Source of the DNA: Desulforamulus aquiferis
GTDB taxonomy: Bacteria; Bacillota; Desulfotomaculia; Desulfotomaculales; Desulfotomaculaceae
Reading direction: 5' to 3'
Assembly: GCA_004143605.1 (NCBI GenBank)
Contig: AWVY01000041.1
Location: forward strand, 1 to 59,208
DNA length: 59,208 nucleotides
Shown piece by piece: positions 1 through 19,807 of this stretch; the first letter of the stretch is position 1; each line of letters opens with the position of its first letter. A model generated the notes under the pieces. The model was not told the DNA's origin. It ran no database searches and was given only the letters and a program-made list of their open reading frames with translations. The position numbers and the translations under genes were made by a program.

Positions 1-946
1 TGTTCGTAAGCCCGGATAATTTCTATTACCAGGGGGTGCCGTACAATATCAGCCGCAGTCATCCATTGGAAAGAAATACCCTTAACTCCTTCCAAAACCC
101 TTTTAGCATCAATTAAGCCGGAATTTTGGCCCTTTGGCAAGTCTATTTGGGTAATATCCCCTGTAATTATTGCCTTGGAGCCAAATCCAAGTCTGGTAAG
201 AAACATTTTCATTTGCTCAGGCGTGGTATTCTGAGCTTCGTCTAAGATAATAAAGGAATCCTCGAGGGTTCTTCCACGCATATAAGCCAGCGGTGCAATT
301 TCAATAATATTTCTCTCTAGGTATTTTTGTGTGTGTTCCATTCCCAAAATATCATACAGACTATCATATAGTGGCCTCAAATAGGGATCAATCTTTTCCT
401 GAAGATCCCTGGTAGAAAGCCTAATTTTTCTCCTGCCTCCACTGCTGGCCTGGTAAGAATTAATCTGTTTATTTCTTTTTTTCGCAAAGCATTTACCGCC
501 ATAGCTACAGCAAGATAAGTTTTACCACTTCCCGCAGGTCCTATGGAAAATACAATATCATTTTTCCTGATATTATTAATATAATCCCTTTGCCCTAAGG
601 TTTTGGCCTTTAGCTGCTTTCCCCTGGCAGTTACCAGCACAATATCTTTGCCTAAACTTGAAAGTGCCCCTTTAACCCCAGATTTGGCAGACCTAATGGC
701 ATAGTTTATCTCATGCCTGCCAATATGATTGCCGGCTTGAAAGTACTCCTTTAGTTGAGAAAAAATCTCTTTCCCCTGTTCCACCTGTTCAGGTGACCCA
801 ATAATAGTTATTTCTTCTCCCCGGGCTATCACCCTTATTCCTAAACTTTGCTCCAACAAATTAAGGTGTTCGTCTTGTTTTCCAAATATGGCTGCAGCCG
901 CCTCATTATCGTTAATTACAACCTTTGCTTCAACACGTTCGGTCAA
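1..946 (-). CDS. phoH: PhoH family ATPase (frameshifted; last residues outside window)
   Basis: PhoH-like P-loop ATPase, a cytoplasmic nucleotide-binding protein linked to RNA metabolism in Firmicutes. The N-terminal part carries a KH-like region, and the Walker A motif GPAGSGKT lies near residue 138. After 'KLGFLPG' one base is missing (about 405-412); the next frame continues with the family sequence ([14 protein letters not shown]) and runs to [13 protein letters not shown] at base 1, so only a few C-terminal residues fall outside the window. The start is TTG, directly after a GAGGAGG ribosome-binding site, and it overlaps the yqfD stop (TTGA), which indicates translational coupling. It is the last gene of a yqfC-yqfD-phoH operon, the usual order in spore formers. 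Family assignment is firm; the molecular substrate is not known. Confidence 0.93.
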
Positions 947-2208
947 TAGTTAACCTCCTCATTAGCTTTAAAAGGTTTTCCCTGTCCTATATCTTCAATT
1001 GTCTCAATAAAAGCCCTGACCCTGATTAAGTCTTCAGTTTTCCCGGTACTTATCTCTTCCAATCTTTCCTCAACTATTCTAGCTCCATTTGGAAGTTTAG
1101 ATTTTGCTTCTTCTATGGCTTTTTGTCCTGCTACATTCTTTGCCCCTGTTTCGCCATGATTAACCCGCGTAATGACTTTTTCCTTAAATTGCACACTTAT
1201 AAGTTCGACGGGGATTTCGATATTCCTCCATTTTGGTAGACTTTTAGAGGTCATCTCTTCTTTATAGTGCTGGTAAGGAGAGTTTTTAGGACCTGATATG
1301 ATTATTTCCTTGCCCCCAAATTTAATACGGGTAGAGGTTTTTTGGCGCTCCGACATATTCTCCTTTATTTCGTTTAATGGACATTCACCATAGCCTCATA
1401 CCATACACGGGCCTGACAATACCTTTGGCCTGAACATAATGACTAATGAATTTTGCCTCAGGGGGATCCTGTCCCTCAGGTAAAGGTTGGTTAGTAGTAT
1501 CAGGTTTAACCTCTTCTTTAACCTCACCGCTGATTAAAATCTGCCCAGGGAGCACAGTATCCCCTTCCTTTGCTATCGCTTGTCCTTTGAGAACAAGCAC
1601 TTCTTTGATTAATCCAGCTTTAGCAGCCACGATATGGGCTGGCCCACGGTTTTCATCCTCCACAACCAGTTTACGCTCAGCAATCTCAATGGTAGCCCTG
1701 GTACCTTCAGGGTTACTCCTACCCAGGCAACAGAGGGAAGTTTTTCACGGATACTCTTCTCCACTTCCTTTGTATCCACACCCCATTTAGCTACTCCGGG
1801 CTTCAAGCCCGATTCAGCGGCATATTTTTTTATCTCATCCTTTGACAGTTTCTCAGCACCGGACACATCAACAAACCATACAAAGGAAGACAGGAAATAG
1901 AGAATGACTAGAAATGCAAGGCCACCAATGGCCAGCAATTTCCTCTTCTTAAGACGATCAACTAAAAAAGGTAGCCCAAAACGCTGATGAATCTTAAATC
2001 GACACTTGGTGGCCCTTGCGATATGGCGCAAGGGCCTTACATCACTAATCCTTACCTTAACCATAATTTGGTCTTTACCCAGCCTGGTTATATCCCATAG
2101 ATATATTCCCCTGCTGGTGGCCATATTTACATATTTCTCAAGAAAATCACCTTTAATAACCATAGATACATAACCCAAAATAAAGGATAGTATTCTGGCT
2201 AATACCAT
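943..2208 (-). CDS. yqfD: Sporulation protein YqfD (three frameshifts)
   Basis: YqfD is a membrane-anchored sporulation protein found throughout endospore formers and expressed with YqfC in the mother cell. The N-terminal part (1609-2208) holds a cytoplasmic region, a basic KKRK segment and one transmembrane helix at about residues 92-115, followed by an extracytoplasmic domain. The middle (1385-1663) and C-terminal (943-1356) pieces lie in other frames. I place breaks near 1700, 1400 and 1375. Span plus three bases gives 423 codons, close to the family's roughly 400 residues. The start ATG follows the yqfC stop by one base, and the stop overlaps the phoH start. Identification rests on sequence and on the yqfC-yqfD-phoH order. 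The exact biochemical role is unknown. Confidence 0.9.
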
Positions 2209-2506
2209 TTACCACACCTCCCCAGGCTCAAGGAAAGTGAGGGATTTAATCTGTCCATCTACGCAAATTTCATCTGTCTTAATATTTCTTACCATCAGGT
2301 CCCACCGATAATTCCGACCTCGCCATCCCCAACCTTGATCCGAACCTTATCTGAGTTATATTCCACGATACCCCTGTGATTTTCAATAAACACCTGTAAG
2401 TTGCCCACCAAAACTATTTTGGGCAAGTCCAACATTACATCGCTTGGGATCTCAAAAAATCAGAAAACTGCTTTTTCACTTTCCTTTGCAAATCCTTAAA
2501 GGACAT
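2209..2506 (-). CDS. yqfC: Sporulation protein YqfC (two frameshifts)
   Basis: Small sporulation protein of about 99 residues, partner gene of yqfD. Reading across two one-base losses (about 2455 and 2295) gives MSFKDLQRKVKKQF at the start, then a beta-rich core (DLPKIVLVGNLQVFIENHRG) and a C-terminal part with LMVRNIKTDEICVDGQIKSL, the pattern of the YqfC family (PRC/YabP-like fold). Span plus two bases is exactly 100 codons. The start ATG has a very strong ribosome-binding site, GAGGAGGGG, which lies inside an 11-bp hairpin described separately. The gene is too broken to appear as one frame but is complete. Confidence 0.85.
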
Positions 2507-2511
2507 TAAAA

Positions 2512-2549
2512 TCCCCTCCTCGGGATTATCTTTATGCACGAGGAGGGGA
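2512..2549 (-). promoter_or_regulatory. Hairpin burying the yqfC ribosome-binding site
   Basis: A perfect 11-bp inverted repeat (arms 2512-2522 and 2539-2549, 16-base loop) lies just upstream of yqfC. On the minus-strand transcript the first arm reads TCCCCTCCTCG, an anti-Shine-Dalgarno sequence, and the second arm CGAGGAGGGGA is the yqfC ribosome-binding site itself, with the ATG five bases later. Folding would hide the site. A short TTTT follows, so a weak terminator for the gene upstream is the alternative reading. Confidence 0.6.
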
Positions 2550-2559
2550 AAATTACTAA

Positions 2560-3039
2560 TTATTGGTACCTATTCCTTTTACGCCTTGCAACAGGTGGGC
2601 CAAGGATTTCTGAAAGAATTATTCCCTGACGAAGCATCCCAGGTCCCATGTCTTTATGGTCAAAACATTTATGGGAAACTTTTTCTTCACCTTTTGTTTT
2701 CTTTTTATTTCTTCTTGCATCTGCTGTATTTGGTTGCGCTGGAGGCTCCACAGCAGCAGTTTCAAACATTCTCGGTAGTTCTTCTTCCTGTTGATAAACT
2801 ATTTCCTCTGGAGGACCCATATCCAAAACATCCTTAGGATATCCAGGAGTAGGAGGGGTCGTTTCCTTTGCTTCCTCACCCTTTGGTCCCCATTTTCCCC
2901 GGAGATCCTGGGGTAATCTATAGGAACGAGGGGCTGGTTGCTCCTCTTCCCGTTCAGGCGCCGGCATCCTCCCTTTGGCTTTGTTGGCCAATGCTCTGAA
3001 TACTGCCCAGAGTATGGCCAAAATTATTAGATTTTCCAA
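2560..3039 (-). CDS. Hypothetical protein with N-terminal membrane anchor
   Basis: I do not recognise a named family. The 159-residue protein starts with a hydrophobic stretch (LIILAILWAVFRALAN) that could be a signal anchor, followed by a long proline- and charge-rich, probably disordered region, and ends with a basic tail (RRKRNRYQ) preceded by the hydrophobic ILSEILGPPV. The start is TTG, 15 bases after the floA stop. It lies between floA and yqfC, where B. subtilis has the unrelated small gene yqfB. The position suggests a membrane or sporulation role, but this is inference. It reads as one unbroken frame. Confidence 0.65.
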   Translation of the reverse strand: MENLIILAILWAVFRALANKAKGRMPAPEREEEQPAPRSYRLPQDLRGKWGPKGEEAKETTPPTPGYPKDVLDMGPPEEIVYQQEEELPRMFETAAVEPPAQPNTADARRNKKKTKGEEKVSHKCFDHKDMGPGMLRQGIILSEILGPPVARRKRNRYQ

Positions 3040-3053
3040 GGGGCATCACTTCC

Positions 3054-4063
3054 CTATTCCGTCTTCTTTCCCTTTGCCTGGTTCTCCTGATTACCAGGAC
3101 CGGATATGGACTCTCTCATCTTGGTATCTGCCAATATGTTTTGCATATTATAATAATCCATTACACCAAGTCTGCCGGAGCGGAAGGCTTCAGCCATAGC
3201 CCTGGGAACCTCAGATTCCGCTTCTACACCTTAGCCCGCATCTCTTCAACCCTAGCCTTCATTTCCTGTTCCTGGGCTACTGCCATAGCCCTGCGTTCTT
3301 CTGCCTTGGCCTGGGCAATGTTTTTATCAGCCTCAGCCTGATCGGTTTGAAGCTGAGCACCAATGTTACGACCTACATCCACATCAGCTATGTCAATTGA
3401 TAGAATTTCAAAGGCAGTACCAGCATCAAGCCCCTTTGATAAAACGGTCTTAGAAATGCTATCAGGATTTTCCAATACCATTTTATGGGTATCGGAACTA
3501 CCCACACTGGTTACAACACCTTCACCAATTCTAGCTATAATGGTTTCCGCACCGGCACCACCCACCAGGCGGTCGATATTGGCTCTAACGGTAACCCTGG
3601 CAACAGCCTTAACCTCAATACCATCCCTGGCCACAGCACTGATGATAGGTGTCTCAATAACCCTTGGGTTAACACTCATTTGAACAGCCTCCAGCACGTT
3701 ACGACCTGCTAAGTCAATGGCCGCTGCCCGCTCAAACTGCAGGGGAATATTTGCCCTTTCTGCAGCAATCAGTGCATCAACAACCCTATCAACATTACCT
3801 CCAGCCAGGTAATGGGCTTCCAACTGATCCACATTTACAGCCAAGCCTGCCTTGTCTGCCTTAATGAGGGGATTGACAATTTGTGCAGGTGGCACCCTAC
3901 GCAATCTCATACCAACCAGGGTGATTATACCCACCTTAACCCCTGCCGCCAGGGCCGAAATCCACAGCCCTACCGGTATGAAACTCATCAGAGTAACAAA
4001 AAGCACAACTCCAAGCATTACTAATACAAGAAAAGATAATCCGCCAATACTAATCAATACCAT
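3054..4063 (-). CDS. floA: Flotillin-like protein FloA (one frameshift)
   Basis: FloA (YqfA family, PF12127) forms flotillin-like assemblies that organise membrane microdomains. Residues 1-60 hold the membrane-inserted hairpin (hydrophobic segment from residue 7, then [12 protein letters not shown]). The long middle region has the SPFH-like fold, and the end is an alanine/glutamate-rich coiled coil ([21 protein letters not shown]). The frame breaks near 3222 after EEMRAKV; the other frame continues with [17 protein letters not shown] and [12 protein letters not shown], the conserved C-terminus, to a stop at 3054. Span plus one base is 337 codons, near the family's 331. It follows nfeD on the same strand, the classic NfeD-FloA pairing. 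Confidence 0.93.
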
Positions 4064-18562: not shown

Positions 18563-19637
18563 CTAAATTACTTCCCCCGCATTTTCTTCTACTTGGTAAT
18601 CCAGTTCTAGATGGTTTAATGTTTCTTCTTCTAAATTTGTGACTTCTTTAGCCTTAAGCTTCTCCTTGAGCACCTCGCCAAGGGCTTCTGCAAACATCTC
18701 TCCGCTGGCCTTTGCTCCTCTAAAGAGTTCTCTACCGTACCCATTTCCACCAAAACGGCCCCAGGATGTAGAAACTGGTTATAGCGACCTTCCTTTACCT
18801 GGACTCCGATACATAGGCCAGGATATAGCTCATCCAATTTATCAGCTAACTGACAAGCAAAATTATAATTTTCTTTCCAGTTTGGAAAGGGTCTTCTGGC
18901 ATCCGAGCCTACAACCATTAAAATTGTAGCCACCTTATTGCCATTGATCTCCACCAAACTCTGTTCCCTGGTTTTTCCTGCATCCCTATGTATATCCAAC
19001 ATGGCAAGCATTTTGGGATATTTTGCCACCAATTCCCTGGCAGTTTTTTCCGATTCAATATAAGAGGTGGCATACTGCAAATCGTGGACCTTTTCCGACC
19101 TGACTACTCTAATAGAAAACTTCTTTTCCAAAACCTGTTGAATTTCGGCTGCCACTGCTACCACTCCACCTTTGCCGGCCACCCTCTCTGTACCTTCTGA
19201 AATAGCGTAAGCTTCTCCCGTATGTGTATTATAGATTGCCACAAGAATATCGCTGCTTAACTCTGGCTGAAGGACAGGTTCCTCTTCTATAATCTTTGGA
19301 GTTTCACTGATAACTGGTGCCCCACCGGCCACAGCTTTGGCCAATAAGGTATTTGGTCAAGAAGCATCCCGGTGGGACTGGTATTTATTCTGGCCAGTCC
19401 CGCCACCCATAGTATTATGGCATGTCCTTGGTTTTCCATCTCATCTGGGGTATCCAATCTTGCTAAAGCAGGCATAGAGGTTAAGACAAGTACCCTAGGA
19501 TCCTGTATTGTAGTTTTTACCAATAAGCCAACTGTTTCTCTTACTACCCCACCACTGTCACCAATTAATTTTAAATCTAGCACCTTATACCATAGGGATA
19601 CAGTTATGATTATCCCTATTATAAGTACAAAAAGCAT
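18563..19637 (-). CDS. spoIIP: Stage II sporulation protein P (two frameshifts)
   Basis: SpoIIP is a membrane-anchored amidase/endopeptidase that cuts septal peptidoglycan during engulfment, with SpoIID and SpoIIM. An N-terminal helix (FVLIIGIIITVSLWY) precedes an extracytoplasmic region, then the catalytic domain with VAIYNTHTGEAY, MLDIHRDAG and HPGAVLVEMGTVENSLEE. One break is near 19335, another near 18700; the second restores the C-terminus to 18563. Span plus two gives 359 codons. The true start is probably upstream near 19690: a GGAGGGG site is followed by a frame reading WDYFRRQFRYRKK straight into this one, but a homopolymer T run there prevents a firm choice. Confidence 0.93.
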
Positions 19638-19807
19638 TTTTTTTCTATATCTAAATTGTCTACGAAAGTAATCCCAAAAAATAAAATCACCCCTCCCGGC
19701 ATGGGGCTTGTTTTTATTATTGTTATGCCCAGGTAGGAGTAGGTATGAGAACTATATTAGGCACCCTAATAAAGCTAATGCGACACAGGTTCCAGCATTG
19801 GTATGCA

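Follow-up and report, generated by a model that had tools for sequence, protein, structure and literature searches.

A hairpin that encloses the yqfC ribosome-binding site and straddles a putative mother-cell promoter in Desulforamulus aquiferis and its relatives: a candidate read-through insulator

In IS10, RNA that reads through into the element folds over the transposase start, and the element's own RNA does not. In bacteriophage T4, the early read-through RNAs of gene e and I-TevI hide the ribosome-binding site in a structure whose 5′ strand contains the late promoters, so that late RNA lacks it; the effect is about 100-fold for gene e (PMC3014915, partial text). A large hairpin has been proposed to block read-through translation of sigG in Bacillus subtilis, and it cannot form from transcripts of the gene's own promoter (PMC5942855, partial text). 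A terminator has also been reported after yqfB in B. subtilis, with partial read-through into yqfCD (PMC3498285, partial text). We found no description of the layout presented here for yqfC in the open-access literature searched.

The window, a stretch of 59,208 nt from D. aquiferis contig AWVY01000041.1, carries on its minus strand nfeD, floA, a gene for a 159-aa protein, yqfC, yqfD and phoH, in that order (Table 1). Only 53 nt separate the stop codon of the 159-aa gene (2562-2560) from the yqfC ATG (2506-2504), and the hairpin and promoter elements all lie inside this interval. A Pfam scan of the 159-aa protein (2560-3039, between floA and yqfC) gave no match; relatives of the protein were seen at other Desulforamulus loci. 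The floA ORF stops early in the window. The yqfC and yqfD frames (943-2506) are broken in the window, unlike yqfC of the congeners, which is intact, and the breaks are probably indel errors of the draft. Because the broken frames fit such errors, the T run of the window may be inexact as well. The yqfC upstream regions of the congeners D. putei and D. aeronauticus are identical to the G001 and G006 loci.

Table 1. Positions of genes, promoter-like elements and hairpin parts in the window
Feature	Position	Strand	Remarks
yqfC (spore_yqfC family)	2209..2506	(-)	ATG 2506-2504; frame broken in draft; TIGR02856 64.5 bits, one internal TGA
yqfD	943..2208	(-)	three pieces by frameshifts; PF06898 on 1609-2208, 1385-1663 and 943-1356
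Co-directional gene upstream of yqfC, 159 aa	2560..3039	(-)	10 nt between its stop codon and the 5′ arm
floA (flotillin-like)	3224..4063	(-)	PF12127, E 3.8e-139; part of the presumed read-through source
GTAATTTT, putative -35	2549..2556	(-)	gap of 11 nt to the -10 block; reaches the 5′ arm
GCATAAAGAT, putative sigma-E/K type -10, in the loop	2528..2537	(-)	CATA invariant in the 31-sequence alignment
Predicted transcription start region, sporulation transcript	2521..2525	(-)	from promoter geometry
5′ (anti-SD) arm TCCCCTCCTCG	2549-2539	(-)	sequence and fold; within the promoter spacer
Hairpin loop TGCATAAAGATAATCC, 16 nt	2538-2523	(-)	sequence
3′ arm CGAGGAGGGGA	2522-2512	(-)	sequence and fold; contains the yqfC SD GGAGGGG (2519-2513)
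TTTT after the stem	2508..2511	(-)	terminator-like tail, also part of the SD-start spacer; T5-T7 in most relatives

The preliminary description of this locus had placed the yqfC Shine-Dalgarno sequence (SD) in one arm of an 11-bp perfect hairpin, and the sequence and the minus-strand fold confirmed it: the 11 pairs are perfect, the SD lies entirely in the 3′ arm, 6 nt separate it from the ATG, and the 3′ arm is followed by TTTTA and then the start codon. The 121-nt minus-strand fold that includes the stem reached -35.2 kcal/mol (z -3.0), a value that one of 200 shuffles equalled or bettered; for a 71-nt plus-strand fold z was -4.18, and none of 200 shuffles did as well. The plus-strand scan also revealed a smaller alternative hairpin at 2509-2527 (-), AATCCC-GAGGAG-GGGATT, which would expose the SD core in its loop and whose upstream arm overlaps the predicted transcription start region. 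Hairpin-enclosed SDs alone are no rarity. With a 60-nt fold of -20 or better and at least six paired SD bases as the criterion, they occurred at 29 of 1026 SD-preceded ORFs, spurious ORFs included, in 1.2 Mb sampled from a Desulforamulus genome. The above-chance feature is the combination of the hairpin, a promoter -10 in its loop and a T run, not an SD in a hairpin alone.

The comparison drew on yqfC-family matches in 58 of 60 relatives and 242 of 299 genomes of the phylum, and on 238 stretches from named genomes, of which 80 were kept. From these we took 199 loci, 198 of them with a start (L023, which had none, was dropped), and analysed 166 distinct upstream regions of sufficient length, split by origin into a Desulfotomaculales-centred set (n = 83; L001-L051 and L080-L139, a few outsiders included) and 83 others. 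Upstream of yqfC, where the preliminary description had suggested looking for conservation, the hairpin is kept in relatives. A strong hairpin, defined by an arm-to-SD energy of -15 or better, was present at 58/83 Desulfotomaculales-centred loci and 19/83 others; these counts and those of T runs below retain several loci, L188 and L163 among them, whose -10 scores poorly or stands far from the start and which are probably not the element. In the Desulfotomaculales-centred set (80 loci), own arms paired better than swapped arms (-18.3 vs -15.2 kcal/mol), and none of 2000 permutations did as well; nor did any of 2000 at the 73 loci tested in the remaining phylum. For this test 13 of the 166 entries were left out because of a poor -10 score. 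Pair types also switch on both sides of the stem (at SD position -4, for example, GC 19 and CG 19), with pairs picked by the folding program, and the swap test is the cleaner evidence of co-variation. When folds were computed without supplying the promoter position, at least five of six SD bases paired upstream of CATA in 70/78 Desulfotomaculales-centred and 29/63 other loci, against a background of 125/478 genes of a Desulforamulus genome scored with a fixed 31-nt boundary. RNAalifold on a MAFFT alignment gave almost no consensus stem, as variable loops push the arms out of register. Distant families carry quite different stem sequences with the same T tail (L053, L054, L064, L078, L178). The pattern GCATA..GGAGG..TTTTTNATG had a single match, at yqfC, in seven of eight congeners; it was absent from the eighth and from the window's own genome, and its reversed control had no match in any genome searched. 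A relaxed pattern, CATANNNT..GGNGG..TTTTT, run on nine congeners, was uninformative, being no commoner than its reversed control in several genomes, and we claim no genes from it. As an arrangement of sequence, the layout at yqfC is conserved in most of the Desulfotomaculales sampled.

The loop of the hairpin holds the element that we take to be a mother-cell -10, by the letters of the sigma-E/K consensus. All 31 aligned sequences share CATA and the G of GTWAT, and CATA was present in 58/58 hairpin loci, as called by a -10 finder that favours it. GTWAT stands exactly 22 nt upstream of CATA at 44/58 strong-hairpin loci and at 14/25 loci with a weak or no hairpin. The promoter thus stays where the hairpin is missing, and therefore the two are separate modules. 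Across the 58 loci, the 5′ arm starts a median of 13 nt and ends a median of 2 nt upstream of CATA. It lies in the promoter spacer, and therefore RNA from the gene's own promoter should begin shortly ahead of the SD and lack the anti-SD arm. Sigma-E promoters of B. subtilis consist of a -35 block of 8 positions and a -10 block of 10, with a gap of 12 +/- 1 (PMC517825, partial text), and the window has this layout with a gap of 11 nt. In Clostridioides difficile, the -10 sequences of sigma-E and sigma-K are very similar and the -35 differs (PMC3789822, partial text). The two sigma factors are indistinguishable here by sequence alone, and sigma-E is preferred because yqfC and yqfD are sigma-E genes in both B. 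subtilis and C. difficile (PMC517825 and PMC3789822; also tables of PMC3498285 and PMC4703394; partial texts).

Co-directional genes lie close upstream of yqfC in the window and at most of the hairpin loci. We called as neighbour the nearest upstream ORF with homologues at other loci, which left 17 of the 83 Desulfotomaculales-centred loci uncalled. A strong hairpin accompanied a co-directional neighbour at 44/48 loci and a divergent one at 5/18 (Fisher 6.8e-7, relatedness ignored), counts that retain miscalls at L108 (start codon), L139 (antisense ORF) and L115 (-10). By family, the no-hairpin state falls in about three families (f5, f9, f14), so independent events are few. At L017, L047 and L118, the divergent loci inspected, the neighbour looks like selD by the sequence of its product. 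Five divergent loci still score as strong, L108 and L139 among them being partly miscalls, and at L111 a divergent gene and a hairpin occur together with an apparent remnant of a lost co-directional gene. L048 has a co-directional gene and a separate terminator-like hairpin before the promoter, with no straddling hairpin; at L014, L008 and L029 a separate terminator-like hairpin and the straddling hairpin are both present. L101, L003 and L015 (divergent by eye) are exceptions to the trend. Outside the Desulfotomaculales-centred set, 64/83 loci had no strong hairpin, though their called neighbours are co-directional.

We consider it probable, on the arrangement of these elements, that the hairpin, which surrounds the sporulation promoter of yqfC, insulates the gene from read-through. 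RNAs reading through from the upstream genes would carry both arms and fold, hiding the yqfC SD, and where a U run follows the stem, read-through transcription would probably also end. Once the mother-cell sigma factor has become active, transcription would begin downstream of the 5′ arm and produce a short leader unable to fold, from which yqfC, together with yqfD, could be translated with no protein, small RNA or ribosome needed for opening. The switch would be the choice of promoter. Against this reading stand the small number of independent family contrasts, the scarcity of strong hairpins outside the Desulfotomaculales-centred set, the divergent loci that still score as strong, the long loops, the short T run of the window and the single further gene in a sampled Desulforamulus genome for which the layout stood out. 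The suggestion of the preliminary description that an anti-SD hairpin could silence yqfC is thus supported as a prediction. Its further proposal, that a protein, a small RNA or a translating ribosome opens the structure, found no support, and promoter-like elements flank the anti-SD arm.

The sequence between the stem and the start codon bears on two other readings. The hairpin may be mainly an intrinsic terminator of the upstream operon, SD hiding being a by-product of sharing GGAGGGG with the stem, which we regard as plausible but on balance doubtful. Consistent with termination, a G+C-rich stem is followed directly by a U tract, and the T run tracks stem strength: a run of at least five T within 12 nt upstream of the start occurred in 49/58 strong hairpins vs 6/25 others (Fisher 2e-7; relatedness ignored), and in the rest of the phylum in 8/19 vs 5/64 (p 0.0012; relatedness ignored). 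A U-tract score of at least 2.5 was likewise reached in 49/58 strong hairpins vs 7/22 others, and the window scored 3.5 with its T4. Distant families combine unrelated stems with T5-T7 (e.g. L054, L178), and the terminator reported after yqfB in B. subtilis (PMC3498285, partial text) points the same way. However, 9/58 strong stems have T runs of 2-4, the window being among the short ones with TTTT vs T5-T7 in its congeners; the loops, at 13-18 nt, are long for an intrinsic terminator, and a terminator scan with loops of 3-8 missed the minus-strand stem because its loop is too long; and phoH and later genes would need a promoter of their own. The opposite reading, which we rate as rather unlikely, is a block of translation only: yqfD and phoH would still be transcribed, and the T run would merely reflect the composition of the spacer by chance. 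The SD does lie within the arm at hairpin loci, and the sigG hairpin of B. subtilis has been proposed to work in this manner (PMC5942855, partial text), but T runs of at least five are rare at that position (12/1026 ORFs in a sampled Desulforamulus congener) and accompany the hairpin. At the Syntrophomonadaceae-like loci L147, L148, L156 and L135, the stem apparently ends just before the SD and a TTG start follows the T run, possibly a terminator variant with the SD outside the stem.

Two further explanations were weighed. A regulated switch on the read-through RNA, such as a riboswitch, a thermosensor, a site for a small RNA or coupling to ribosomes that translate the upstream gene, would agree with the existence of an anti-SD hairpin and with the position of the upstream stop codon, which in the window precedes the arm by 10 nt. 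We judge it very unlikely: the hairpin matched no Rfam family, the loop is conserved like a promoter, and the upstream gene and its distance vary among lineages, which also makes opening by the upstream gene's ribosome improbable as a conserved mechanism. The Rfam search for a riboswitch or other known RNA family had returned two hits, both below the gathering score and eukaryotic. About as improbable is that the C-rich spacer serves the promoter or binds a regulator and pairs with the SD incidentally. The arm does lie in the promoter spacer, by construction in the arm-energy table and also in the free folds, but some lineages have the promoter without a C-rich arm (e.g. L010, L011, L047), and the arms co-vary with the SD flank.

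We also searched for the layout beyond yqfC. In the 60 relatives, a strict pattern that combined -10, SD, T run and ATG found yqfC and a few others, including spoIIP and a trypsin-like peptidase, and its reversed control found none. The identity of spoIIP rests on PF07454 matches directly downstream of the pattern sites, and the peptidase was named by eye from its sequence. At spoIIP, 19/32 loci had a usable -10, and 13 of these 19 paired at -15 or better; T5 or more occurred at 8/13 strong-pairing loci vs 1/6 weaker ones. Among CATA sites before starts in the congener sample and the window, 4/66 had z of -3 or lower vs 0/76 for four control motifs; yqfC was the strongest of the four, which included a peptidase of the trypsin-like kind. 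Besides yqfC, the only gene with a mother-cell-like -10 that stood out for the layout in a sampled Desulforamulus genome was a peptidase gene. In several genera, the trypsin-like peptidase gene has CATA within a hairpin and the SD in the 3′ arm (L234:11928 (+), L221:1500, L229:1500). The window's own spoIIP (18691-19780 (-)) has a GGCATAACAAT element and a GGGAGGGG SD upstream, and its straddling hairpin is weak by eye, unlike several other genera. Strong stems over the SD with T runs of 4-5 were also seen in sampled Desulforamulus at L259:13115 (+), L248:2236 (+), L284:12153 (-) and L286:5904 (-), genes whose mother-cell -10 is not clearly established.

More broadly, and tentatively, with a chance that we put slightly short of even, endospore formers may use a fused terminator, promoter and ribosome-binding site as a standard insulator of mother-cell genes that stand behind vegetative genes. 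In such an element the SD would form the 3′ arm, the U tract would serve as SD-start spacer and the loop would hold the developmental -10. Its gain and loss would follow the orientation of the upstream gene, and it would have arisen several times at yqfC and spoIIP. If the insulator reading of yqfC holds, a developmental gene could be kept silent in growing cells without a repressor, through placement of its promoter inside an RNA hairpin. Vegetative transcript reads over genes insulated in this way need not mean expression, insulated sporulation genes could be located by a simple sequence signature, and the correlation with neighbour orientation would serve as a natural experiment on why bacteria put hairpins there.

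Precedents for the logic exist in B. subtilis sigG and T4 gene e. As in these systems, the ribosome-binding site of yqfC lies in one arm, and the other arm lies upstream of the gene's own start as predicted from promoter geometry; a putative promoter of the regulated gene between or over the arms is likewise present at the level of sequence, as the fixed GTWAT-22-CATA. As far as the partial account of sigG goes, this gene (spoIIIG, downstream of spoIIGA-sigE) resembles what we predict for yqfC in that the hairpin is possible in read-through RNA only. However, sigG, which is a forespore gene, has a sigma-F/G promoter and its hairpin spans 20+ bp, whereas yqfC has a putative sigma-E/K -10 in the loop of a short stem, a T run, and a distribution over many genera. 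T4 gene e and I-TevI use a phage late promoter, in contrast to the putative cellular developmental promoter and terminator-like tail of yqfC. IS10 shares the read-through-only folding predicted for yqfC, but it is a mobile element and its arm comes from the element's end. The B. subtilis yqfB terminator, in the partial text that describes it, occupies the same place between the flotillin operon and yqfCD as the hairpin described here. What looks new is the gene, the putative sigma-E/K -10 in the loop, a terminator-like tail that is at the same time the SD-start spacer, the occurrence in many genera and the association with neighbour orientation.
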